A stretch of DNA of 64,000 bases from Enterocytospora artemiae (Eukaryota; Microsporidia): contig JASNGC010000001.1 of the NCBI GenBank assembly GCA_038659295.1, forward strand, positions 730,580 to 794,579, written 5' to 3'. Made by a program: the position numbers and the translations under genes. The notes beneath the pieces are model-generated. The model was not told where the DNA came from, did not search any database, and saw nothing but the letters and a program-made list of their open reading frames with translations. Of the stretch, positions 47,398-64,000 are shown piece after piece; position 1 is the stretch's first letter, and each line of letters opens with the position of its first letter.

Positions 47398-48372
47398 ATG
47401 AGATACCGCTATCAGCCATTCTACAGTTTGTTGTTTCTGGATCAAGTGCTTTCGGAAATATCAATGGACCAGATAGCCAAGGTAATTGGCATGGAAAAAT
47501 ATGAAAGTATGAGAAAAACAATTCTCAATCCAATGTTTGGATATTTATGGTTGAGAAACTGTGGACCCAACTTACGAAGGTATAATCCAGAAATTAAAGT
47601 TACGTATGAAAGTGGCAGAAGAGACTTTGGAGAAGATAAAAGCGATGATCCTTTTGTTAGTCTTATGATAGATCTATTCCCATCCCCAGCAGGCATATTG
47701 TGTCCTTTTAGAAATATGATGAATAATTTTGGGTATCACTATTTCTCCAAGATCACTGAGGAAAAAGCCAAAAAAGATAGATGTAACAAAGGCATAGAAG
47801 TGATGGCAGATGTATTTGTCAGAATGCTGACAGGAAGTGAAACAAATGTAGCCAGGTTGTCTGAGTCTAAACAAGACAAAATCAAATATACCGTTAATCG
47901 AATAATATACAATACCGGGATGGAATCCAAATCAGAATTGTTCAAGGGGAAGGAGAAAGAACTTAAGCTTCTTTTGATCCATGGGTTTATGGTCAAAGTA
48001 CTAGATTCCGAGGAAGAGTTGGGATTGTATCTCGATAAAATATTAGAGAAAATTGAGGATAAATCATACGAAATAGACGAATATGGTATGAGTGATCATT
48101 TCACAGAAACATTCAGTGAATTTTATAGGATTATTAACATATTTCCATATTCCAGAGTGAATACACCAGTTCCAATATACATAAGAAAAGATAATACATT
48201 TGATGAAACCAAAAAATTCACGGATTGTGCAGAAATAACACTACTTCATCTTTTCAACTGCTTATTCTGGGATATGGAAGGACAGCACTATTCATTAGAA
48301 CACCTGGGATTGGAAGAAAGTTTACCGTTGAAGAAATTCTGTAGAAATGTTGGAATAGAGAATTCACAATGA
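47398..48372 (+). CDS. Subtelomeric multicopy-family protein, N-terminal part
   Basis: A 324-residue ORF starting MRYRYQPFYSLLFLDQVLSE with ATG but no CCC motif. Blocks such as NPMFGYLWLRNCGPNLRRYNP, SPAGILCPFRNMMNNFGYH and CAEITLLHLFNCLFWDME look like conserved segments of a large uncharacterised microsporidian protein family I associate with chromosome ends; the name and extent are from memory and uncertain. The C-x-E-I-T-x-x-H-L-F-N element resembles similar motifs in other eukaryotic and bacterial proteins of unknown function. The ORF stops at 48372, but related-looking coding continues in other frames to about 49460, so it is probably the first part of a broken longer gene. Confidence 0.55.
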   Translation: MRYRYQPFYSLLFLDQVLSEISMDQIAKVIGMEKYESMRKTILNPMFGYLWLRNCGPNLRRYNPEIKVTYESGRRDFGEDKSDDPFVSLMIDLFPSPAGILCPFRNMMNNFGYHYFSKITEEKAKKDRCNKGIEVMADVFVRMLTGSETNVARLSESKQDKIKYTVNRIIYNTGMESKSELFKGKEKELKLLLIHGFMVKVLDSEEELGLYLDKILEKIEDKSYEIDEYGMSDHFTETFSEFYRIINIFPYSRVNTPVPIYIRKDNTFDETKKFTDCAEITLLHLFNCLFWDMEGQHYSLEHLGLEESLPLKKFCRNVGIENSQ

Positions 48373-48455
48373 CGGCAGACAGAAGAAAGGAATGGTCTAG
48401 GGTAGTACGAGGTTTAGGAGGGTATACGCCTAGGGATGAAGGGGAATATTTGATA

Positions 48456-48581
48456 GATGAGTGTGTATAAGAAGGTGATGAGTGTGTATAAGAAGGTGAT
48501 GAGTGTGTATAAGAAGGTGATGAGTGTGTATAAGAAGGTGATGAGTGTATATAAGAAGGTGATGAGTGTGTATAAGAAGGG
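48456..48581 (+). repeat. 21-bp minisatellite, 6 copies
   Basis: Six head-to-tail copies of GATGAGTGTGTATAAGAAGGT, with one G-to-A change in the fifth. One frame is open across it (48457-48588) and would encode a repeated heptapeptide MSVYKKV. It lies just after the 324-residue ORF and probably arose within its decaying 3' part. Confidence 0.9.
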
Positions 48582-48699
48582 TTGGTAAAGAATGAGGTGA
48601 GATGAGGAATGATAAGTATGATGAATGTGATTGTAATGGCTACGGAAGTATCTCCAGCAGATACAAGCTTAGAGGGGTTTTGGAGGAATATTAAATAAG

Positions 48700-49460
48700 T
48701 TTAGGGAATTGATTGATAGGCTAAAACATCGTAATTGTGAAGTTAAATGTGGAATCAAATCAATTAGAGGATTTACAAAGGACGACAGAAGAGATTGGGG
48801 ATACACCACTTACCTTTGGAAATACAATTAACCCGGGAGAGCTGGGAGAGGTCAAGATGGAGCTAAAAATTAGTAGTGGAAATTCTGCAATGCACTCTGT
48901 CTCGGATACTAAACTTACATTCAGTGGATATGAGAATGCAGCACCACCACATCCTATTGCATTGACCATGAAGTATCTGATGCTCTGTGATGAGAGATTT
49001 AACCTTACCATACCCGACGGTTTCTTCACAAATGTGTACAATAGAATGATCAACAACAACGAAGAGAAAATAGAAGTACTGGGATACTTGTTTGAACATA
49101 GTGATGGTAAAAAAAAAGTAGAATACTCAAATGAAATTACAAAGCAATACTAGGCACAGCAGAGTTAAGAGATGGAAGGACACAGAAGATGTTCTCACAA
49201 TTTGTACCAAAGAATGCATTATATATATGGTATAGTATATTTGATGTGTTTGTAGAGTGTAAACTAAAAGTAGTGGTTTGGAAGAGTATTGGGGAGAAGA
49301 GGTGTCCAAAGAGGTATCTAAAGAGGTATATAGATTGGAATTAGTTGATTTAGCAGGGTTTAGTAATAATGACATGGCTGGTGAAATATTAAAATATGTA
49401 CCATATGGACATTAAAGGTGAGGATTTGAATTGCTAGGAATAAGGAGGTATCACCTGTAG
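48700..49460 (+). pseudogene. Decayed 3' part of the subtelomeric gene
   Basis: An open frame from 48737 (GTG only) to 49153 encodes 138 residues with protein-like blocks (FSGYENAAPPHPIALTMKYL; RFNLTIPDGFFTNVYNRM). After its stop, another frame continues (ELRDGRTQKMFSQFVPKN, LYIWYSIFDVFVECKLKVV) to about 49340. The frame changes, missing ATG and proximity to the 47398 ORF indicate a broken, formerly longer gene of the same family. Confidence 0.5.
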
Positions 49461-49558
49461 TTGATTTACTTGGTAAGGCAGACTTGAATAGTTTGGAATT
49501 TGAAGTGGCACAGTGGGGTTACAGAGAACGTTGAAGGATAGAAATTTAACGGAAATTT

Positions 49559-49811
49559 AACGGATAGTATGAAGATGATTTAACGGATAATGTGAAGATG
49601 ATTTAACGGATAGTATGAAGATGATTTAACGGATAGTATGAAGATGATTTAACGGATAATGTGAAGATGATTTAACGGATAGTATGAAGATGATTTAACG
49701 GATAATGTGAAGATGATTTAACGGATAGTATGAAGATGATTTAACGGATAATGTGAAGATGATTTAACGGATAGTATGAAGATGATTTAACGGATAGTAT
49801 GAAGATGATTA
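49559..49811 (+). repeat. 23-bp minisatellite, 11 copies
   Basis: Eleven tandem copies of AACGGATAGTATGAAGATG plus ATTT. Copies 2, 5, 7 and 9 carry ATAATGTG in place of ATAGTATG, giving a partly alternating higher-order pattern. A partial copy precedes the array (about 49541). It sits about 300 bp upstream of the LSU rRNA. Confidence 0.9.
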
Positions 49812-50115
49812 ATTTTTGAATATGGCTCATAAGTGAGAAAATATAGTTGATGTAGCCATTATAATGAAGTGCTCAAATGATTGAGGAGTTAAGAAAGAGC
49901 AGAACGTATTGAATGCGAAATACTAATAGGATATTCTGTACTAGGATTGTGTGTGTTGTGTGTATGTTGTATACATGTAGTATTGTGTGTGTGTTATGCA
50001 GTATATGGGTTAATTTAGCGCACGTTGGGGAGGGTGGGTAGGGACGTGTGGGGGGAAGCCCCTGCATGTGAGATATTGGTATTGTTTGTTGTGGTGTGCG
50101 CAAGTGCATGACGAT
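49812..50115. promoter_or_regulatory. Probable rDNA promoter/external spacer
   Basis: Spacer upstream of the LSU rRNA with TG-rich runs (about 49945-50000) and a G-rich stretch (about 50020-50062). It should contain the Pol I start by position. No specific element could be defined. Confidence 0.35.
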
Positions 50116-51740
50116 TGATACATGATACAATTGCGTTATTCCTTGTACGGGATCGATAGGTACCGATAGCGATGACGAACGTGAAGGACACGACAATAAG
50201 ATTCTAATTGTGCACGTTGTGCAGGACAACATCCTGAACTTAAGCATATTATTAAGGATAGGAGAAGAAATCAACGGAGATTCCAGTAGTAGAGGCGATT
50301 GAACATGGAGAAGACCCGATTGTAAGGGGGCGTGCTCCCCGTTGTAGCAGAGCGCAGAGAGACGGGCATGGAAAGGCCGACCGGAGGGGGTGATAGTCCT
50401 TGGAGCGCGGAGAGGGAGAGAGTAGTGCTGCTTGGTAGTGCAGTGTGAAGGGGTGGTAACAGCATCCAAGTCTAAATATAGTCGGTGACCGATAGCGGAG
50501 AAGTAGCGCGAGCGAAGTGTGAAAAAGTCCCGGTAAGGGAGTGAAATAGTGAAAGTACAAGGAGGTAAGCCGAGAGACTCGGACCCGTATTGAAACACGG
50601 ACCAAGGAGATTACATTCCCAGCGAGGAGAAGCATGTGAAGTGCGGGCCCGGAAGCGATTTGATAGTTGGGAGGGTAAGACCCGAAAGGTAGTGAACTTT
50701 CAGCGGTTTGATTGAAGTCAGGAAAAATTCTGATGGAGGATCTGAGTCATTCTGATGTTCAACTCGATGACATGAGCTACTGAAAGGGGCGAAAGACCAA
50801 TCGAACTACCTGGTAGCTGGTTCCAGCCGAAATGTCTCTCAGGACAGCGATGCGGGAAACTAGGGACATGGTGTAGAGAGGATGTGGAAAATTTCAACAA
50901 ACTCCGAAGCTGTGGCAGCGTAATAAGTGTGTACTAGCGCTGGGGCCTAGGACGCATCAGTGGGCAGACCGAGGTAAGCTTGGTCTGCAAGAAGGGATGA
51001 ACCTGACAGAGGGATAAACAGCCAAAGGCTGAGCAGAGAACCCATAAATGCGGTAGGCAAATCCAGACAGTAGGGCGGTGGCCATGGAGGTTGGCATCCG
51101 CTAAGAAACGTGTTGCAACGTACCTACCGAATTTGCGACGGCATAAAATGGATGGCGCTGATCAGCGGTGTGAGGCCCTCGACTCTGTGAGTAGTAGGCG
51201 GGCACTATTGTTGTGGGGAAGTGCGCGGGCGACCGCGGATGGAACGACATTAGGAGCAGATCTTGGAAGTAGTAGCATCTTTACGAAGTGAATGTTGAGA
51301 CGGGTTCGTCCTTTGGATAGAAGGAGGTGATGCGGACCTAAGCGAAAGGGAGATGCATAGAAATTTGCATGGTGGCGGCCGAGGTTGCGAAACAGGGATG
51401 ACGGCAAGGGAGCGCGGAGTGAGAATTTGCTGTACCGCGCGGAGGTGTGCCGAGAGTCATACGGAGACGCAGACGGACTTGCCCGTGGAAAAAGAGGGCC
51501 GCCAGCCGTACCGAACCGCATCAGGGCTCAGGGGTTAGGAGCCCGATTCACAAGGAAAGGTAGGTAAGGGAAATCGGCAAAATGGATGAAAAACCTAGGG
51601 ATAATTATTGGCTCTAGCATGCTAGAACTGGGCTTACAAGGGGAATCTGACTGTTTAATAAAAACATAGCTTTGTGTGGATGCAAAGTGAATTCTGCCCA
51701 GTGCTTGGGACGTTAAGGAAGTAATTTTAGGTACGCACTT

Positions 51741-51818
<78 letters not shown>

Positions 51819-51890
51819 GCAACGAGATTCCCACTGTCCCTACCTACTGCTTTGCGAACCTACAGCCAAGGGAACGGGCTTGGGATATGC

Positions 51891-51927
<37 letters not shown>

Positions 51928-52206
51928 GAGGCAGATTGGCTAGTCTGGGTGTCGTAGCGAGGTGGGTTACTGTGTGAGACCACTGGCGCCCGTGACTAGA
52001 CGGTTGGTTGCCTGATGGGGAGTTTGGCTGGGGCGGCACGACTGCTACAAAGTAACGCAGACGTCCAAAGGTTCGCTTAGAGGGGATGGAAACCACTCGT
52101 GGAGCATAAGGGCAAAAGCGAGCTTGACATAGGTGCAGACGCACGTATTGATGACTGGAAACAGGGGCCTAGAGATCTTTTGCAACGGTTAGGTGCAGAA
52201 GTGACG

Positions 52207-52239
<33 letters not shown>

Positions 52240-52342
52240 GGCCGAGAGATCGTATCGACGCCGCTTTTTGATTCTTCGATGTCGGCTCTTCCTAGCATGG
52301 TGAAGCAGAAATCACCTAGTGTTGGATTGTTCACCCACCAAC

Positions 52343-52397
<55 letters not shown>

Positions 52398-52640
52398 CAG
52401 GTGTCTGAGAGCAGGCCAGAGTAGTACGAGAGGAAGTTCTGGTCTGGATCACTGGTCGGGCGCTCGTCTGTTAAGGCGGGGGCGCAGCTACATCCAGCCT
52501 GTAATGGCTGAAAGCCTCTAAGCCAGAATGGGGACTTGGGGACACGGGGGTGCGGAGACGACGCACGTAAGGGGGCTGCTGTGCGAAGCGAGTATACATT
52601 ACGAGTGTTTCAGGCAGGCCTGCGCCTTTTTGTGGGGAAG
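50115..52640 (+). rRNA. Large-subunit rRNA with fused 5.8S region
   Basis: Conserved segments appear in order: a 5.8S-like stretch (GATGACGAACGTGAAGGACA at about 50171), then GAACTTAAGCATATTATTAAG at about 50235. Domain IV follows (AACTATGACTCTCTTAAGG near 51756), then peptidyl-transferase segments (GTTACCACAGGGATAACTGG near 52213) and the sarcin-ricin loop AGTACGAGAGGAA near 52422. There is no spacer between the 5.8S-like and 28S-like parts, as is known for microsporidia. It is GC-rich compared with the core region. Both ends are estimates (about +/-30 bp); the length of about 2.5 kb fits the group. Confidence 0.92.
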
Positions 52641-52981
52641 CGGGTCGTGGTGTGTAGTGATGTTGTGCATGATATTGTGTGGTGGTGTGTGCAGGATATT
52701 GTGGTATGTGCATTGGCATGATATTGTGCAGGCTGATATGTGCATTAGCATGACATTGTACCATGCTATGACATTGTGCGACATTCTGTGCGCCTCGCGA
52801 CACATGGCCCAGCAATGGACATGCGCGGCAGGGGGTACGAGCGTGGGGAAACCCGTGTGCACAGGCATTTTGGCGAGGCGGAAATGCGTGTGGGTCTGTG
52901 GATAGAGGCAAGAGTGTGATGTGGGCAATGGATTGCCACGGATTTGCAGGATTGGGATAGGCCACGGGGTAGATGACAGGA
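52641..52981 (+). other. Spacer between LSU and SSU
   Basis: About 340 bp of TG-rich sequence with repeated TGATATTGTG/TGACATTGT-like elements (about 52660-52790), then GC-rich DNA. By position it is the internal spacer of a reverse-order rDNA unit, or an intergenic spacer if two units are joined. Confidence 0.6.
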
Positions 52982-54260
52982 CACCAGGTTGATTCTGCCT
53001 GACGTAGATGCTAGTCTCTGAGATTTAGCCATGCATGCTTAATAGAAATGGCGAACGGCTCAGTAATGTTGCGATGATTTGCTCTTGATGGTACAGATAA
53101 CCACGGCAAGCTGTGGCTAAGAGGCAAGAATAAGACGCAACCCTATCAGTTAGTTGGTAGTGTAAAGGACTACCAAGACGATGACGGGTGACGGGAAATG
53201 AGGGTTTGATTCCGGAGAGGGAGCCTGAGAGATGGCTCCCACGTCCAAGGACGGCAGCAGGCGCGAAAATTGCCCACTCTTTGGTGAGGAGGCAGTTATG
53301 AGACGTAGATTAGAGGGCACAGTAAACAAGTGCTTTGAGTATTGGAGGGCAAGTTTGGTGCCAGCAGCCGCGGTAATACCGACTCCAAGAGTGTCTATGG
53401 TGGATGCTGCAGTTAAAAAGTCCGTAGTTGTATATGCAATTGAAGGGCACAGGTCAAGGGTGCAGGGTTTGCTAAGGATGGCGGAACGGGCAGAGTGCAT
53501 AGTATAGGCGGGCGAGAGATGAAATGACCAAGACCCCGCCTGGACTGACGGAGGCGAAAGCGATGCACTTGAACGAGTCTGGGGATCAAGGACGAAGGCT
53601 GGAGGATCGAAAGTGATTAGATACCGCTGTAGTTCCAGCAGTAAACGATGCCGACAAGCAGGACACGGGAGTGTTTGCTGGGAGAAATCATAGTTTTCGG
53701 GCTCTGGGGATAGTACGCTCGCAAGGGTGAAACTTAAAGTGAAATTGACGGAACTACACTACCAGGAGTGGATTGTGCGGCTTAATTTGACTCAACGCGG
53801 GAAAACTTACCAGGACCAAGCAGCGCAGAGATCGACTACGTGAGCGCAGCAGGAGTGGTGCATGGTCGTTGGAAATTGATGGGATGACTTTCAGCTTAAG
53901 TGCTATAATCAGTGAGATCTTTGGAGACAGGTGCAGAATGGCACAGGAAGGAGAAGGCGATAACAGATCAGTGATGCCCTCAGATGCCCTGGGCGGCACG
54001 CGCAATACAATACTCGATGTTCTTGCAGATGGATTTTGGAGTGCGAGGGATTAGCTCTTGTAAATGAGCTATGAACGAGGAATTCCTAGTAACGATGATT
54101 CATTAAGTCATGGTGAATGAGTCCCTGTAGTTTGTACACACCGCCCGTCACTATCTCAGATGGTTATGGAGATGAAGAGCCCCGGTTCTGAATAGTCATA
54201 GCTAGATAAGGTACAAGTCGTAACAAGGTTGCGGTCGGTGAACCAGCCGCAGGATCATTA
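52982..54260 (+). rRNA. Small-subunit (16S-type) rRNA
   Basis: Starts at CACCAGGTTGATTCTGCC (the standard microsporidian SSU 5' end) and ends near CAGGATCATTA at 54260. Universal segments are GTGCCAGCAGCCGCGGTAAT (about 53360), AAACTTAAAGTGAAATTGAC (about 53730), TTGTACACACCGCCCGTC (about 54134) and AAGTCGTAACAAGGTTGC (about 54215). Its length of about 1.28 kb is typical of microsporidia and much shorter than fungal 18S. Confidence 0.95.
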
Positions 54261-54344
54261 CGGATTTTGTGAGGTGATGTGTCGTGGGATGTGAACCAGC
54301 CGCAGGATCATTACGGATTTTGTGAGGTGATGTGTCGTGGGATG
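54239..54344 (+). repeat. 53-bp tandem duplication of the SSU 3' end
   Basis: Two near-perfect copies (starts 54239 and 54292) containing TGAACCAGCCGCAGGATCATT and its downstream flank. The second copy recreates the last 22 nt of SSU rRNA outside the gene. Confidence 0.9.
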
Positions 54345-55024
54345 CATGTATGTGTGTGTATGTAGTATATGTTTGTGTGGTATTATATATAAAATGTGTG
54401 TATATTTTGGTTAGTATATATAAAATTTTTGTATATGTTGGTGTGGTTGTTTATATAAAATGTGTGTATATTTTGGTGTGGTAGTATATATATATTGTGT
54501 GTATATGTTGGTGTTGTAGTATATATAAAATGTGTATATATGTAGTATATGTTGGTGTGTTAGTATATATAATATGTGTGTATATGTAGTATATATAAAT
54601 GTGTGTATATGTTGGTTTGTATATATAAAATGTGTGTATATTTTGGTTAGTATATATAAAATTTTTGTATATGTTGGTGTGGTAGTGTATATAAAATGTG
54701 TGTATATGTAGTATATGTTTGTTAGTATATATAAAATGTGTGTATATTTTGGTGTGGTAGTATATATTAATTGTGTGTATATGTTGGTTTGTATATATAA
54801 AATGTGTGTATATGTTGGTGTGGTAGATCGGGGAGGGCACGTGCTATGCTGGTGTGTATAGCTGTAGTGAATAAAGATATGTTGGTGTGGTAATGAATTT
54901 ATTAATGGTGTTATGTATTCATTGGTTCTTTAATTGTGGGAATGATCGATATCCAGACCAGATATTTTAAATCATTGATATAATCGATTAAAAGGTGGTA
55001 CCAAACTTTATTAATGGGATAATC
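54345..55024. repeat. TG/TA-rich degenerate repeats
   Basis: From 54345 to about 54830, irregular repeats of TATATAAAATGTGTGTATAT and GTTGGTGTGGTAGT-like units. ORFs here are low-complexity artefacts. From 54890 to 55024 comes flanking sequence shared with other members of the gene array, including TTTATTAATGG. I found no convincing 5S rRNA. Confidence 0.75.
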
Positions 55025-55603
55025 TCATCGAAGCAGCAGGCATAAACAAAATGCGGTAAGGCCCATAATGGTGAAAATAGTGGAGGCGGCGGGATAGAGC
55101 ACCACACATCTGTATATCTGGCGACAAAGATACAAGGCAGCGAAGGCTAGCAGGCAAAATATCGAAATGACAAGGAGACCAAAGATGGAATTGCGTAGAT
55201 CTCTTTCCGATTTACACAAAAGAAGCCAGATGAGGAGGAAGGAGGTGATGGAAGAATCATCAGATTTTGACTGCTGAGAAGTGTGGTTGACAGCACAGTC
55301 ACTATCTGCACGGCTAATGCAGTCATCACCCACATGGCTAAGTTGGGTGAAATCGTTATTTTTGTGGCCAATGATGGGATCACGATCCACGTGATGGGGC
55401 TGGGTATTATCTACACGATCAAGCTTGGTGGGATGATTGTCTACGTGATGAACACATTCGTGACGAATAGGACTATCTACGCGATCCACACATTCGTGAC
55501 GAATAGGACTATCTTGATCAATGATGGGATCGACACTCTCACGATGCTTTGGAGTGTCTACGCAAAAAACCAGTGGGACTAAAATGAGAGGAAGAGAAAA
55601 CAT
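55025..55603 (-). CDS. MFSLPL-family membrane protein, intact copy
   Basis: A 192-residue protein, the best-preserved member of a subtelomeric family. It starts MFSLPLILVPLVFCVDTP (signal peptide, about 1-15). Residues 20-110 are rich in His, Asp and Cys with repeated SPIRHECV.R/H-VD units encoded by a 38-bp duplicated segment. Hydrophobic segments lie at about 119-130, 140-160 and 167-191, so the C-terminus is membrane-embedded. The stop (TGA) is followed by GATTATCCCATTAATAAAG, containing a polyadenylation-like AATAAA that recurs beside other copies. Function unknown: a variable surface or secretory-pathway protein is a reasonable inference from location and signal peptide. Confidence 0.6.
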   Translation of the reverse strand: MFSLPLILVPLVFCVDTPKHRESVDPIIDQDSPIRHECVDRVDSPIRHECVHHVDNHPTKLDRVDNTQPHHVDRDPIIGHKNNDFTQLSHVGDDCISRADSDCAVNHTSQQSKSDDSSITSFLLIWLLLCKSERDLRNSIFGLLVISIFCLLAFAALYLCRQIYRCVVLYPAASTIFTIMGLTAFCLCLLLR

Positions 55604-55963
55604 TTGGGGAATGGAACATTGAATAATATATGTGTGGCCGAAAAGAGCTAATTGGCAAAAGTAGTCTAGTTATGGGGAGGAAAATAGCTCTGGGTTCATT
55701 GATGGATGAAATAAAGGTGCATACCAGAGTAGGAGTATGCAGACGCACATCAGGGTATATTTGGAAGATGTGATGTATAGGTAAAACACATGAAACTTAT
55801 AGTATGTTATATTGTGGAGTATTGAGCCAGGAAATTACATTTATATTTCAGGGAGATCGACATATCAAATAAATTTACCCAAGGTGGTTAAGAATCTGTT
55901 ACGGACTGGGGGAAGTAATATCTTGAATTAAAAGGTCGAAATATTGATTCACAGGCAGAAGAT
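55604..55963. other. Spacer between array members
   Basis: Shared array flank, including a GAGCCAGGAAATTACATTTAT-like segment related to sequences near 56930, 57716, 59128 and 61846. No gene called. Confidence 0.45.
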
Positions 55964-56377
55964 TTAATTGCAGAGATCAGGACGGTGGTGGGCCACGACT
56001 ATGGAGGTGTTAATACAAACAACATGTGCAAAGTAATACACTAGGGTGATGAGTGCTAGAGCGGACGGAGAGAGTTTACGTCTGCATATCCAGAGATAAA
56101 GATATGAAAAGCTCTTCTTTTGCGGATCTAGGAATAAAAAGGCAAACCAAGAAGATAAACCCGAAAAGAAAATATGGATCTCTGGATTTTGGTTGTTGAG
56201 GAGTATGGTCGACATGACGGTGATTATTTGTGTGATTGAGCTTGATGGAATGATCACTTTCGTGATGGAACAGTCATTATCTGCATGATCAATGATGGGG
56301 ATGGACTCGTTGTTCTTTCGAGATGGAGTATCGACATAAAAGACGAATGGGATTAAGATGAGAGGAAGAGAAAACAT
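55964..56377 (-). CDS. MFSLPL-family copy with altered C-terminus
   Basis: A 137-residue ORF, clear paralog of 55025-55603 at the N-terminus (MFSLPLILIPFVFYVDTPSR; then IPIIDHADNDC against DPIIDQDS). The His/Asp-rich repeats are mostly missing. Two hydrophobic stretches remain (FFSGLSSWFAFLFL, and a later one), but the last 25 residues are encoded by what is non-coding 3' flank at other copies (the GCAGAGATCAGGACGGTGG region). The box with stop and AATAAA has apparently been deleted. It may be expressed with a new tail or be a pseudogene in decay. Confidence 0.5.
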   Translation of the reverse strand: MFSLPLILIPFVFYVDTPSRKNNESIPIIDHADNDCSITKVIIPSSSITQIITVMSTILLNNQNPEIHIFFSGLSSWFAFLFLDPQKKSFSYLYLWICRRKLSPSALALITLVYYFAHVVCINTSIVVAHHRPDLCN

Positions 56378-56731
56378 TTGGGTCTATATTCTATGGAATA
56401 ATATATATATGGGCGAAAAGGTTAATTAGTAAACAATGCAGGGTAGGTAATGGATTTATTAGTGGGTGAGTAGATATTAAAATGGGAATATGGGGGTTTT
56501 GGATAATTTTATATGAGATGATGTTGTATGGTAAAAAAATATTATATATGTATATAAAATTATATATTATATATATGTGTATATATTGTATATTATATAT
56601 ATGTATAAAATGAGGAAACTTTCACTTGGATACCTTATTTGGAGTAATACCTAAAAACTAAAATAAATGATCTCAGGTAGAAGATTTAACTGTAGATATC
56701 ACCAGTGAAGTTAGGGAGAGTCAATACGAAA

Positions 56732-56862
56732 TGATGGATGATGGAATTGTTGACCACATGACTGAGTTGGGTGGTGGGAACAAGAGCGATATTCCGATGG
56801 TTTTGAGATGGAGTGTGGATGAAAAGATCAGTGGGATTAAAATGATATAGAGAGAAAGGATT
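56732..56862 (-). pseudogene. MFSLPL-family relic
   Basis: The minus strand matches the 5' part of the family (ATTTTAATCCCACTG is shared), but the start codon is replaced (ATC for ATG) and only about 130 bp of body remain. It is duplicated at 61441-61578. Confidence 0.7.
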
Positions 56863-57130
56863 TGGAGAAATGAATATATTGTGATGTTATGGTAAGGACA
56901 ATTTATTGATGGGGAGTATCGGGGGAATGGAAAGAGTCAGGAAATTAAATATGTTTATTGTTGAATAAATTAGATTATAGATATGTATGGTTAAGAGTTA
57001 AGTAAAGGATATGAGAAATTAAAAATTTGATCAAAGGATCTCGATATTAATTCTGGAAGTGGGAGGGATGGAACCATAGGATTCAGAAGTGGGAACATGG
57101 TGAGGGGATTTTAATACGGTGTTGAAGAGA

Positions 57131-57458
57131 AGTTTATTAATGGGATAATCTCGTAACAGATATAAATAAGATGTGGAAGGTGGAGAACATGCAATAAGAT
57201 ATGAAATGATGGAACCAGGAAGATATAAAAGCACCGAGGAATGAACAAGATACTTTGTACAAAAGCTCAGGGGTATTCGGTTGAAGGGTAGGAGAGAAGA
57301 AACCGCTAGGAATCATCATTTCAGATTTTTGGAGAGCAGGTTGACAGAATGCCATTTTTTGTGACGGATGATGGGATCAGGAATATCATTCCTTTCGAGA
57401 AGATGAAGAAAGTGTGAAAGACCAGTTGGATTAAAATGAGAGGAAGAGGCTATTTGGA
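57131..57458 (-). pseudogene. MFSLPL-family relic
   Basis: Keeps the 3' box GGGATAATCTCGT with AATAAA (57131-57150) and the 5' end homology (CTTCCTCTCATTTTAATCC), but the start reads ATA and frames are interrupted. A 72-codon open stretch (57137-57355) preserves the hydrophobic C-terminal part. Confidence 0.7.
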
Positions 57459-57897
57459 TATTATACAATACTATATATATAGGGGAGAATTAGTAAAAAA
57501 TAAACAGATGGATTATGAATTTATTAATGGGAGAAGTAAAGAAGATAACTAGAGCAGGGTTATGACGTTCTAGTTGATGGAAAGGAGTATATGCGCTATA
57601 TATAATATATGGTATGGAAATGCAGTATTTAAGAAGATATGAGGTAATGAATATAGTGTATTGGAGAGAGTAGAGCAAAGAGAATCTATTGCGATGGGGA
57701 GTACACGGGGGAATGGAAAGGGTCAGAATAAGAATTTGTCGAGATACGTTTGATACTCCGGAGAGATTGGGATCGCTGAATAAATGGAGTCAAGTGTATA
57801 AGATATGGTTAAGAATCAAGGTTCGAGATAGATGATTTAATTGTAGGGATCATGAAGTGGTACTGCGAACTAAGGAGATATTAATACGGAATGGAGA
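57459..57897. other. Array spacer
   Basis: Flank sequence shared with other array units (AATTTATTAATGGGAGAAG near 57515; GGAATGGAAAGGGTCAG near 57712; ATGATTTAATTGTAGGGATC near 57833). No gene called. Confidence 0.5.
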
Positions 57898-58345
57898 TAG
57901 GATGGAAGCTCAGTTAGTGGGATAATCTCATGGAGCAAGATAGAAATAAGATGGGTGGAGAACAGTTAGTATGTCTGGAAGACGAGAACTATGAAGAAAA
58001 GGTCAAAACACAGAAGAAACGATGAGAGAATGGATAGCCAGGTAAAGGCCCATGCAGATTCAGTTGACGGACAGACGAGACCAGAAATAAAAACGGAATG
58101 TTCAGATTCATCTTGTTGAGAGGGATGGCTGATGTGAGAGACACTACTTTTGTGATGAATGATTATCAGTGTGGTCGAAGTGACGGACATTATTATGTAC
58201 GTGATTAGGTTTGGTGGGATTTACTTTTGTGACTAGTAGAGTATCTACAAGAATGATGGGGATGGACTCATGGTGCTTTCGAGGAGTATCGACGGAAAAG
58301 AATGGGATTAAGGCGAGAGGAAGAGAAAGGAATAGGCAAAAAGGT
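57898..58345 (-). pseudogene. MFSLPL-family relic
   Basis: Contains the 3' box (GGGATAATCTCATGG), a 74-codon open stretch (57966-58190) with a hydrophobic end (TWLSILSSFLLCFDLFFIVL), and 5' homology ending near 58345. The start codon is gone and the N-terminal frame contains a stop. Confidence 0.7.
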
Positions 58346-58912
58346 TGGGTAGGGAATGAATCACGGATTTATTGATGGGAGAAGATAAGTACAGGAGGAT
58401 ACCATTAAGATGGTGAAAAAATATATTATATATATTATATTGTATATATATATATATATGGTACGAAAAAATTATATAATATATATAATATATATTGTAT
58501 ATGTATATAGGTATAAGTATTTAGAGTAATACTCAAAAATTAAAATAAAGGATCTCAGATAGAAGATTGAATTGTAGATATCAGGACAATGGAGACAATC
58601 GAAATAGTGGTTGGAACAAAAGTTTATTAAAGAGAGAATCTCATGGTAGATATAAAGATAGTGGAAGCAGCAGGGAATCTATAAAAGGACCTCGGAATAA
58701 AGACCTTAGTACACCGTGGGGGATTGAATTGAAGAGGAGAACTAAAGTTATGAATAGTTAGTTGTAGGAGATGAGGAAAGATATTGAATGGGCGTTTCGA
58801 GATGGAATCGGTGGAAATAAAGTTAGAGGAGATGGTCTGTACAGAATACTTATATGGAGATGAAGTTAGTTAGATAGAAAGAATTATGAAATTATTAATT
58901 GGAGAAGTAAAG
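58292..58912. repeat. Segmental duplication, copy 1
   Basis: About 620 bp nearly identical to 62071-62693, differing by a few substitutions and the length of a TATATA run. It includes the 5' end of one MFSLPL relic and most of the next. Confidence 0.9.
58621..58850 (-). pseudogene. MFSLPL-family relic
   Basis: Has the 3' box with AATAAA (AGTTTATTAAAGAGAGAATC on the + strand) and traces of the 5' end (GGAAATAAAGTTAGAGGAG), with most of the body lost. An identical decayed copy lies at 62402-62632. Confidence 0.6.
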
Positions 58913-59354
58913 AAGCAACATACTAGATAGGGTTATGATGACTAGTGGAATATGATATATGAATATTATGAAGTGATAGGTATCATATGTGTATATGGTA
59001 TAAAATATTATATATAGTATATATCAAGAAGATGTGATGTACAGATAAAAGATATGAATATGGTGTATTGATGATGTTAGATCAAAGATTTATTGATTGG
59101 AGAGTACTAAGTGAAGAAATGGAAAGAGTCAGAATAAGAAATTTAAATATTTTTATATTTCAGGAAAATTGATGCTACAGAATAAATTAAATCGAGTTGT
59201 GTATAAGATATGGTTAAGGATTAAAAATGAATTTATAGGGAATCAATATTTTGAATCAAAGGATCGAAATAGTGGTTCTCAGATAGACGATTTAGTTGTA
59301 GAGATCACGAAGTGGTACAGACTATGGAGATTGGACAAAAAGATTAATATGACC
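58913..59354. other. Array spacer
   Basis: Purine-rich and AT-rich flank, with ATTTATTGATTGGAGAG near 59088 and ATGGAAAGAGTCAGAATAAG near 59129 shared with other units. No gene called. Confidence 0.5.
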
Positions 59355-59560
59355 GGAGAAAAGCTTTATCAGATATAAATAGGGTGTGGATAGTATAATA
59401 GTAAGAGTGATAGGGGATGAGATAGATATCAGAAGATGAAGATATGAAATGGCATGAAGCAGGGAATGTATAAAAGGATGTCGGAAGATACATTGAGTAA
59501 GAACTCAGATTCTGGGGAAAGAGTGGAAAGGCAGAATATTCCAGTGTATGTGACAAGAAA
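59355..59560 (-). pseudogene. Fragment of MFSLPL-family gene
   Basis: Retains 3'-box-like AAAGCTTTATCAGATATAAAT and body similarity to 58621-58850 (GCAGGGAATGTATAAAAGGA). The 5' end is absent. Confidence 0.45.
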
Positions 59561-59623
59561 ATGTTATATATAGTATATGATAAGAAAATGCTATTATGTA
59601 TAGTGTAAAGGATATGTAGTATA

Positions 59624-59709
59624 ATGAAGAAATACTCGTAAACGAAAAATTCAGTTATGAGTAGCTATGAAGAAATATTCGTAAACGAAAAATTCAGTTA
59701 TGAGCAGCT
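59624..59709 (+). repeat. 43-bp tandem duplication
   Basis: Two copies (starts 59624 and 59667) of a unit beginning ATGAAGAAATACTCGTAAAC, differing at two or three bases. Confidence 0.85.
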
Positions 59710-61097
59710 AGAAGTAAGACAGATTTGAGAAGTTATTGGGAAGATTCGAGATAGAGAGGAACGGAAAAGATAAAAGACCAAGGAATATGATGGACGAGAT
59801 ATGATTAGATGATAGTTGGTAGAAGAAGAACTTGACTAGAAGGGTCAGGAGGAGTAAGTTAAGAAATGAAAGTCATATACTAGACCAGTCATGAGACTTA
59901 TTGGTGTTTTGGGAGAAGATGCAGTTTTTGGGGATAGGTCAGGAATAGAAGACGGATACTTTAGTGGATAGTTAGAGGAGGCTAAGATTGACGAAGGGGA
60001 ACTAGTATGAAAATTGAAGTGGGAGTCAGAGGAAGGATGGAAATTGAGGACTGAAGAAGATTGGCTAATGGACAAGGAGAAAAACCAAGATTAGGTTTGC
60101 AGGAGAGAGTGGATACATATGGAGAGTATGTGGTAGGTAAGGACTTAAGATGTTTTGCGGGAGACGAATACTAGAGACTACGATATATGATTTATGGAAG
60201 AGACAGGGGACTTGCGGATGTGGGAGTGTACAGAGGAGAAGGGGAGATATATTGATGACCTGTTTGGATTAGGAGAGATGGTAGGCTAATTGAGTGGTGT
60301 TATAGGTTAAGGAAAAGCAAATATATGAAGGGGAGTGGAGTCAGGGATTTATTATGTGTAGTATAAAGGTATATGTGATATGTATATCATATATGATATA
60401 GAATATATAGTTATACCGTATATATATTATGTATAGTATAAAAAAATATAGTTTGGTAAGAATTGATATTGAGAAATATATGAATGATAAGGATTGTGAG
60501 GAAAGGATAATGGGTTATTATTATGGTGGGAAATAAAGAGATTAAATAGAAGAAGTAATTACTGAGGGTAGAGTATGGAGAGTTAGGTTGGGTGGAAAGA
60601 GGAATGTAAGGTATTTTTAATTGGGGAGAAGAATAGTGGAGAGTAGTATTGTTAGTTAAATATAAGTGAAAGTGTATTAATGTTCTTAGCCATAATGGAG
60701 AGTAGAATTTAGTATAGTTATGAATAGTTTAGTATTAAGGTTAGTTATTGACGGCCAGAGGAAAAAGAATTATGATATTTATAAGTGCAGTTTGAGGAAA
60801 TGTATGGAAGGAGGAAGAATGGGATTAGTTGGATGGTATAAAGAAAGAAGTTATGGAATGGAGAGATGAAATAGTATGATATGGTATAAAAATGGTATAT
60901 ATGGTATAAAGGATGGTATAGAATGAAGAAATTTTTAGTTATAAATCTGTATTTAGAGTAATAGTTAAAACCTAAAATAAAAGATCTTTAAGGATTGAGA
61001 GAAGTTAATATTTTGAAATAAAGGATCTCGGATATAAGATTTAATTGTAGGTATCACCAGTGAAGTTAGGGAGATGTGAATACGAAATAGTGGAAGG
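59710..61097. other. Purine-rich subtelomeric DNA
   Basis: About 1.4 kb rich in A and G on the + strand, with short TATATA runs near 60380-60440. No gene or recognisable family copy is seen. Array flank sequence (GATCTCGGATATAAGATTTA) reappears at about 61025. Confidence 0.5.
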
Positions 61098-61578
61098 ATG
61101 CAAGCTTTATTAATGAGGGATATTATTGAAAGCAATGAATGTCACAAGAGATGATTGGACGTTTGTATATCCTGAAGCAAAGATGTACAACGGCGAGAAC
61201 CATGAACATCGAAATGCGGAGGTAACAGAGGAATGGGCTGGGTAGGTCAGGTTGTATAGAAGGACGGTTGAAGAGTACAAGAAAACCAGGAATAAAAATA
61301 GAAACCTTCTGATTCTAACTGTTTCGAAGCATGGTTGGTGTGGTGGTGATTACCTTTATGAAAATGATGGGATGACGATGTACGTGATCGAAGTGATGGT
61401 GATTATGTACGTGATCAAGTTTGGTGGGAAGATCAATTCATGATGGATGATGGAATTGTTGACCACATGACTGAGTTGGGTGGTGGGAACAAGAGCGATA
61501 TTCTGATGGTTTTGAGATGGAGTGTGGATGAAAAGATCAGTGGGATTAAAATGATATAGAGAGAAAGGATTTGGAGAA
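61098..61578 (-). pseudogene. MFSLPL-family relic, long
   Basis: Near full-length relic: the 3' part begins after GCTTTATTAATGAGGG (AATAAA on the minus strand). The middle keeps the variable GTACGTGATCGAAGTGATGG-type repeats corresponding to the His/Asp region. The 5' end is identical to the 56732 relic with the start codon lost. Confidence 0.65.
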
Positions 61579-61782
61579 TGAAGGATTGAATATTATATAT
61601 AGGGGAAAAGAGTTAATTGGGAAGAAACGGTTGAATAAGTATAATTTATTAGTGGAAGAGGTAAAGAAGGTACATAGAATAGGAATATGATATTCTAGAT
61701 GATGGAATGTGTTATATATAATGTATGTTATACATAGTGTATGTATACGTTATTAGGAAATATAGATTATGAACTACTTTGC

Positions 61783-62015
61783 AGAAATGAATATATTGTG
61801 AGGTTAGAGCAAGGACAATTTATTGATGGGAGTATCGGGGGAATGGAAAGAGTCAGGAAATTAAATATGTTTATTGTTGAATAAATTAGAGTATAAATAT
61901 GTATAGTTAAGAGTTAAGTAAAGGATATGAGAAGTTGAAAATTTGATCAAAGGATCTCGGTATTAATTCTGGAAGTGGGAACATGGCGAGGGGATTTTAA
62001 TACGGTGTTGAAGAG
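61783..62015. repeat. Duplicated segment (pair with 56866-57130)
   Basis: Same sequence as 56866-57130 apart from a 34-bp deletion between short GTGGGA direct repeats and scattered substitutions. Together with 61441-61578 (pair with 56732-56869) it shows a mosaic duplication. Confidence 0.85.
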
Positions 62016-62040
62016 AGTAAATGAGGAAAGGTGGTGATGG

Positions 62041-62632
62041 AATAAGACATGAAATGATTTTCGAGATGGAGTGACGGAAAAGAATGGGATTAAGGTGAGA
62101 GGAAGAGAAAGGAATAGGCAAAAAGGTTGGGTAGGGAATGAATCACGGATTTATTGATGGGAGAAGATAAGTACAGGAGGATACCATTAAGATGGTGAAA
62201 AAATATATATATATTATATTGTATATATATATATATATGGTACGAAAAAATTATATAATATATATAATATATATTGTATATGTATATAGGTATAAGTATT
62301 TAGAGTAATACTCAAAAATTAAAATAAAGGATCTCAGATAGAAGATTGAATTGTAGATATCAGGACAATGGAGACAATCGAAATAGTGGTTGGAACAAAA
62401 GTTTATTAAAGAGAGAATCTCATGGTAGATATAAAGATAGTGGAAGCAGCAGGGAATCTATAAAAGGACCTCGGAATAAAGACCTTAGTACACCGTGGGG
62501 GATTGAATAGAAGAGGAGAACTAAAGTTATGAATAGTTAGTTGTAGGAGATGAGGAAAGATATTGAATGGGCGTTTCGAGATGGAATCGGTGGAAATAAA
62601 GTTAGAGGAGATGGTCTGTACAGAATACTTAT
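62041..62632 (-). pseudogene. Most distal MFSLPL-family relics
   Basis: The 5'-end fragment at 62041-62130 and the body/3'-box fragment at 62402-62632 are copies of 58292-58345 and 58621-58850 respectively. Neither has an open frame. Confidence 0.6.
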
Positions 62633-62693
62633 ATGGAGATGAAGTTAGTTAGATAGAAAGAATTATGAAATTATTAATTGGAGAAGTAAAGAA
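62071..62693. repeat. Segmental duplication, copy 2
   Basis: Partner of 58292-58912. Boundaries are sharp: similarity stops after GGAGAAGTAAAGAAG at the right end in both copies. Confidence 0.9.

Positions 62694-64000
<1,307 letters not shown>

Follow-up and report, generated by a model that had tools for sequence, protein, structure and literature searches.

A candidate lineage-specific membrane-protein gene between the rRNA genes and the telomere in near-identical chromosome-end blocks of Enterocytospora artemiae

The chromosome end, ORF A and its relics

Between the ribosomal RNA (rRNA) genes and the telomere at the right end of the 794,579-bp contig C1 of the microsporidian Enterocytospora artemiae (GenBank assembly GCA_038659295.1, contig JASNGC010000001.1; 3,015,070 bases in five contigs) lies a 192-residue open reading frame (ORF), here called ORF A, together with a minus-strand array of its decayed copies. 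The stretch analysed, hereafter the window, comprises 64,000 nucleotides (C1:730580-794579), and positions are those of the window unless a contig is named. Its plus strand holds a large-subunit (LSU) rRNA gene of eukaryotic type at 50207-52633 (Rfam RF02543, 1528.8 bits), which runs toward the telomere upstream of a microsporidian small-subunit (SSU) rRNA gene at 52982-54260 (RF02542, 1179.1 bits). Beyond these come an AT-rich tandem repeat with periods of 35 bp and longer (54365-54826), highly variable from end block to end block, then ORF A on the minus strand (55025-55603) and, over the final 491 bases (63510-64000, plus strand), a telomere of the form (TTAG)n that becomes TTAA-rich over its last ~115 bases.

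The predicted product has a hydrophobic N-terminus (MFSLPL...), behind which stands a motif, VDTP..K..ES..PII, that is kept in ORF A and in relics B and E described below; a polar middle rich in aspartate and histidine (17 D and 11 H among 102 residues); and a hydrophobic C-terminal third. Midway through the frame lies a 36-bp (12-residue) tandem repeat in 2.1 copies (55440-55514, minus strand). Hydropathy gives two clear hydrophobic segments besides the N-terminus, and a single-sequence structure model places three longer helices at the C-terminus with low confidence (mean predicted local distance difference test score, pLDDT, 52.4), for which reason no fold search was made. Both are compatible with a cleavable signal peptide and membrane helices, although such segments are common by chance in this DNA. 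Where the original prediction had proposed a signal peptide and two or three membrane segments, the signal peptide is probable and two segments are clear, the third appearing only in the low-confidence model. On the same strand, CCCC stands directly 5' of the ATG (55606-55609) as a candidate start motif, and further 5' lies a stretch with TATA-like and CCAAT-like sequence (55621-55656), found by alignment and named by eye rather than with a promoter model; a similar stretch lies 5' of relics B and H, with the CCAAT-like part in H only. An AATAAA (55007-55012, minus strand) lies 12 bases past the stop codon.

Database searches returned no relatives of ORF A at E <= 1 among 5.8 billion proteins and no match to PDB sequences at E <= 10, and neither ORF A nor ORF B matched a Pfam family at E <= 1. 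Of the database proteins listed under a microsporidian name, those most similar to the lipin encoded in the window come from Nucleospora, Enteropsectra, Enterospora and Vittaforma (40-45% identity), which together with the TTAG telomere makes a relationship to the Enterocytozoonida, perhaps a distant one, probable; no relative of ORF A was found among the Enterocytozoonida proteins present in the database searched. Within these searches the family is undescribed, as had been supposed, and the product is best read as a lineage-specific protein, either secreted or held in a membrane, whose outer part is rich in His and Asp and whose putative role is considered further below.

The tandem arrangement on the minus strand, from the ribosomal DNA (rDNA) to the telomere, is borne out by blastn with gene A and its flanks, which recognises one intact copy, six relics that retain a 5' end and two that retain a 3' end only. 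All relics are disrupted. Relic B (55964-56377) keeps its start and first ~30 codons in A-like form and is frame-shifted after that, and relic E (57914-58328) remains open and A-like for ~62 codons before a stop. Relic C (56731-56877), defined by blastn and internal repeats, is a 5' part; relic D (57130-57448) shows both ends by blastn; relic G (58612-58860) shows a 3' end by blastn, its outer limit being that set for alignment; and relic H (61101-61623) has a recognisable 5' end, His-rich middle and 3' end. Relic I (62059-62110) is a 5' end that falls within a locally duplicated copy of the region of relic E, and relic J (62391-62640) a local duplicate of relic G with a 3' end. With gene A against the array, blastn places six further 5' ends (56433-56255, 56877-56809, 57448-57417, 58328-58223, 61623-61518 and 62110-62085) and further 3' ends at 57152, 57934, 58644, 61122 and 62423. 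Fewer than nine members are independent, because the pairs 56731/61440 (99%), 58277/62059 (96%) and 58427/62206 (100%) are later local duplications, the first of which makes 61440-61578 of relic H a 99% copy of 56731-56869. A 'conveyor' of decay toward the telomere was considered but is not supported: relic H, which lies far out at 61.5 kb, resembles the start of A no less than relics closer to it.

At the protein level, tblastn with protein A against the rest of the array gives 40.0 bits at best (relic B) and 33.9 bits (relic E), compared with a maximum of 25.4 bits over 100 dinucleotide shuffles; a second match in relic B reaches 26.2 bits, and the other relics, not above shuffles by protein, rest on DNA similarity. 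Relics E and H retain His-rich peptides that can be aligned with A, so the His-rich character is older than the present copy.

Coding status of ORF A

ORF A is very probably a real gene, as the composition of its codons, its start context, one constrained block and the character of its middle together suggest. The C-over-G excess of its strand is found at third codon positions only (23 G to 61 C, against 84 to 95 at first and second positions; Fisher p = 0.003), as expected where protein constraint resists mutation bias, and a contrast this large between codon positions arose 7 times when ORF A was shuffled 5000 times, and in 6 of 1467 open frames that occur by chance. A CCC lies no more than 12 nucleotides upstream of 15 of the 26 core ORFs (CCCC in 9 of 26) but of only 68 of 1729 core ATGs, and the available part of a study of Nosema describes a CCC/CCCC motif that directly precedes start codons and is more frequent in genes with high expression (PMC11592040). 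Over the 28 aligned codons at the start, A and B differ at 9 of 19.2 synonymous sites and 9 of 64.8 non-synonymous sites, a ratio of non-synonymous to synonymous change (Ka/Ks) of 0.21 (Fisher p = 0.004). The polar middle forms a run of 98 consecutive hydropathy windows below zero, which was seen in none of 12,600 chance pieces.

Several observations weigh against this conclusion, and must be set beside the rival account in which ORF A is a chance open frame in a telomere-associated repeat that codes for nothing and whose minus strand is rich in C and poor in G. Both the gene call and the constraint are read from the sequence of one genome. Of the 65 ATGs on the minus strand of the array itself, 10 are preceded by CCC and 3 by CCCC. 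The AATAAA past the stop codon speaks for a gene, but as a weak marker, because just 8 of the 26 core ORFs have it within 60 bases past the stop. Hydrophobic segments arise by chance on this pyrimidine-rich strand at a mean of 1.4 per 192 residues, where ORF A has two; its hydropathy peak is matched by 2.6% of chance pieces, and its structure model is poor. Ka/Ks is 0.56 between A and E (Fisher p = 0.38) and 0.92 between B and E, and differences of the relics from A are spread about evenly across the three codon positions, with only relic C lower at second positions, which does not support lasting constraint on the family; the case for constraint therefore comes from ORF A itself and a single short block. 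Three of the nine ORF A copies in the genome are damaged. ORF length alone is weak evidence, a minus-strand frame of at least 192 residues turning up 19 times when the array was shuffled 1000 times, and twice in 2000 shuffles of the local region. A chance origin would agree with that array frequency, with the expected number of hydrophobic segments, with the lack of a homologue at E <= 1 and with the even spread of relic differences; it is nevertheless improbable, for it accounts neither for the codon-position contrast, the start motif and the polar middle, nor for the A-B Ka/Ks of 0.21 and a protein similarity to relics B and E that exceeds the best of 100 shuffles.

Homogenised end blocks and strand-biased decay

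A six-frame search of the genome with the ORF A protein, in which 18 of 18 candidates were scored and the counts are a lower bound, located at least 18 places, nine of ORF A type and nine relic B starts. Six of the nine ORF A-type copies are intact, with proteins 100% identical, and three are damaged: one carries an in-frame stop, a second is interrupted where the frame changes, and the third, at 95% identity, likewise has a stop. Every ORF A-type copy adjoins one of nine SSU rRNA copies on its telomere side, and this lower-bound search found none outside the rDNA-flanking end blocks. When the nine end blocks are aligned, the stretch from the LSU gene toward the telomere is common to them and nearly identical; in eight comparisons with the window copy, ORF A shows 0 differences in 579 bases in five, and 1 base, a 1-base length change and 17 bases in the other three. 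What is present is one homogenised gene, not a variant repertoire.

The array occurs at every contig end assembled past the SSU gene, which makes seven of the ten (both ends of C1 and of C4, the left ends of C2 and C3, and the right end of C5), and ORF A is intact at six of the seven ends counted as carrying the block. At the other three ends no array was found in the last 10 kb: C5 left stops inside rDNA, and C2 right and C3 right continue in other sequence. C3 right (C3:804691-814690) departs from the shared block after ~400 bases, leaving 9.6 kb unlike the last 16 kb of the window; minisatellite expansion was rejected as the origin of this array-less end, its last 10 kb holding no large tandem array. 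The C2 left block ends early, before the telomere. In the C4 left block 3,781 bases of relic array are present as a tandem extra copy; direct repeats (58291 and 62073) flank it, the outcome expected of unequal exchange, and array length accordingly varies between chromosome ends (C4 left block compared with window 58291-62694).

On C4, telomere repeats in interstitial position and inverted orientation, with (CTGG)n/(CCAG)n stretches, separate the two outer blocks from the rest of the contig; these inverted telomere-to-telomere junctions are at 13.2-14.2 kb and 372.0-372.85 kb. A nanopore miscall of CCCTAA to CCCTGG is reported in the part of the source available (PMC9414165), and these junctions are probably miscall artefacts combined with a presumed nanopore fold-back, although they may instead mark a true chromosome fusion. 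Seven real ends are counted because the outer blocks look like such artefacts. Differences between blocks similarly resemble a polishing or basecalling artefact: G>T and C>A make up 54 of the 82 minority letters across eight blocks, and between the C4 outer left block and the window 168 compared sites differ, only 6 of the 167 gaps from one such site to the next being shorter than 20 bases. On account of this signature, a selection test from differences between ends was rejected, and neither the damaged copies nor the polymorphism counts (one segregating site in 579 bases of ORF A and 45 in 5723 bases of relics, over eight blocks) are used as evidence.

Decay strips C from the G-rich strand of the telomere. 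Counted over relics B, C, D, E, G and H, with I and J omitted as local duplicates, a plus-strand C of gene A is changed in 231 of 320 aligned relic cells, and a G in 224 of 574. A very strong G-over-C skew marks the whole stretch between a point ahead of the LSU gene and the telomere (48001-63509); its value is 0.18 within ORF A and climbs to 0.72 close to the telomere, where C makes up 4.5% of bases. ORF A has 45.6% GC, and the remainder of the array 32-41% GC with a skew of 0.36-0.72, a difference that also speaks for a gene. Because the skew is 0.44 also upstream of the LSU gene, rRNA read-through past the SSU gene would be insufficient by itself to produce it, and we infer deamination of the G-rich strand, when single-stranded, as its source. 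A gene resisting strand-biased decay beside its own dead copies would make the mutation bias at these ends measurable.

Other features of the window stand apart from the array. The LSU gene precedes the SSU gene (50207-54260), with 348 bases between them, which is the reverse of the usual rRNA gene order. The last 23 bases of the SSU gene and 30 bases downstream form an exact tandem duplication (53 bp twice, 54238-54343). A rearrangement of rRNA genes is mentioned for Glugoides in the part of the source available (PMC12449221). The TTAA-rich telomere end (63885-64000) is perhaps a basecalling artefact and otherwise degenerate telomere; nanopore miscalls of TTAGGG to TTAAAA appear in the available part of one report (PMC9414165). 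At 985-1869, an ORF matches the Pfam family 8TM_micro, a microsporidial eight-transmembrane domain (E = 1e-13). On the core side of the rDNA, window 47398-48372 and L030:4547-7918 belong to a second orphan family, mostly near chromosome ends. With 24 genome matches, not all at ends, it is a larger multigene family than that of ORF A; several members occupy open frames of 1,130-1,211 residues, one 1,123-residue member has C-terminal leucine-rich repeats (LRRs), and the 324-residue window ORF, for which no homologue was found at E <= 0.1, is a short form. Expansions of LRR families are noted for Spraguea lophii and T. hominis in the portion of the literature available (PMC3749934).

Interpretation and comparison with known systems

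The reading we prefer, to which we attach a probability of roughly 0.6, is that of a lineage-specific protein gene between the rRNA genes and the telomere, in a block kept near-identical by recombination between chromosome ends. The block carries the LSU and SSU rRNA genes, ORF A and its decayed tandem relics. The N-terminus (MFSLPL...) would direct the product into the secretory pathway, two or three C-terminal membrane helices would anchor it, and the His/Asp-rich repetitive stretch may be exposed at the parasite surface or in endomembranes; copies at many chromosome ends would then act on dosage and gene-conversion repair, not on variation. A position at the parasite surface is a tentative proposal that leans toward the negative, and the binding of metal ions by the His/Asp-rich stretch, a guess from composition, is doubtful. 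The fullest version, in which the gene occupies the telomere-side rDNA flank at every end and concerted evolution holds up to ~10 identical copies of a metal-binding surface protein, is unlikely; if true, it would mean rRNA-like gene dosage for a host-interface protein in place of antigenic diversity.

Antigen families hold many different live variants, and the original prediction had likened the array to such a family, with a variable middle to its product. Chromosome-end position, copy number and relics that might serve as donors would all suit an antigen or host-interface family with a variant repertoire, and further copies at other ends were indeed found (nine of ORF A type, with the block at seven ends, and only in end blocks as far as the lower-bound search extends). 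The His/Asp richness of the middle is likewise seen, but not its variability between live copies. The likeness to an antigen family is not supported: the six intact copies encode one and the same protein, every other member is disrupted, a second live variant was not seen, and the aligned blocks carry the same relics save for the 3.8-kb extra of C4 left and the shortened C2 left. We regard this explanation as very improbable. A chance frame, the other outcome that the prediction had allowed for, is disfavoured as set out above. There is more to say for a real gene with an internal role, in the endoplasmic reticulum or nuclear envelope and out of contact with the host, that became trapped in the block by recombination; it would be a small membrane protein without homologues, and position is uninformative on a protein's destination. 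The want of a relative among the Enterocytozoonida proteins in the database speaks against a conserved housekeeping function, and we judge this explanation rather unlikely.

Were the preferred reading of a homogenised end gene correct, a working gene beyond the rDNA, homogenised with it, would make the telomere-side flank usable coding space in very small genomes, and would also show that subtelomeric copy number in microsporidia need not imply diversity.

Partial coverage of the literature yielded no paper whose title points to a microsporidian protein gene situated between the rDNA and the telomere, and the statements that follow extend to the available parts of the sources cited. Both Glugoides intestinalis (PMC12449221) and Microsporidia sp. 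MB (PMC13174016), like E. artemiae, have TTAG telomeres, and both belong to the Enterocytozoonida. In Glugoides the rRNA genes come next after the telomere (PMC12449221), the ends of MB carry long interspersed nuclear elements and reportedly no shared subtelomeres (PMC13174016), and no gene like ORF A is named in those parts for the ends of Glugoides, Vairimorpha necatrix or MB (PMC12449221, PMC13174016). Nosema muscidifuracis has conserved subtelomeres of ~20 kb, likewise long blocks common to chromosome ends, but its telomere is TAGG/TTAGG rather than (TTAG)n, and no such gene is named in the part available (PMC11592040).

In Encephalitozoon the rRNA genes are the outermost chromosome genes, and telomere-associated repeat elements (TAREs) share the place of the ORF A array between them and the telomere; base-composition biases are also reported for its telomeres and subtelomeres (PMC10158259). 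TAREs are short tandem repeats with units of 33-70 bp and degenerated TAREs behind them (PMC10158259), whereas the array units here are gene-derived, hundreds of bases long and include one intact member, and only 54365-54826 has units of TARE size. For E. cuniculi, the description of the stretch distal to the rDNA is one of degenerated telomeric tracts that lack GC skew (PMC4704409).

ORF A also resembles the subtelomeric families of E. cuniculi, interAE/interB (DUF1609, DUF3654), interC (DUF1686) and interD (DUF2463). These too are multi-copy genes of chromosome ends that encode signal or membrane segments, include pseudogenes and take part in recombination from end to end; interC and interD, like ORF A, are transcribed away from the telomere (PMC4704409). 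Unlike them, ORF A carries none of DUF1609, DUF3654, DUF1686 or DUF2463 (0 Pfam matches at E <= 1). A genome-wide search limited to DUF3654 and DUF1686 gave 0 matches, but its controls were silent too, so absence from the genome is not shown. The inter families are diverse, and the EXT repeats that contain them are found core-side of the rDNA (PMC4704409), whereas ORF A lies on the telomere side and is represented by one live sequence.

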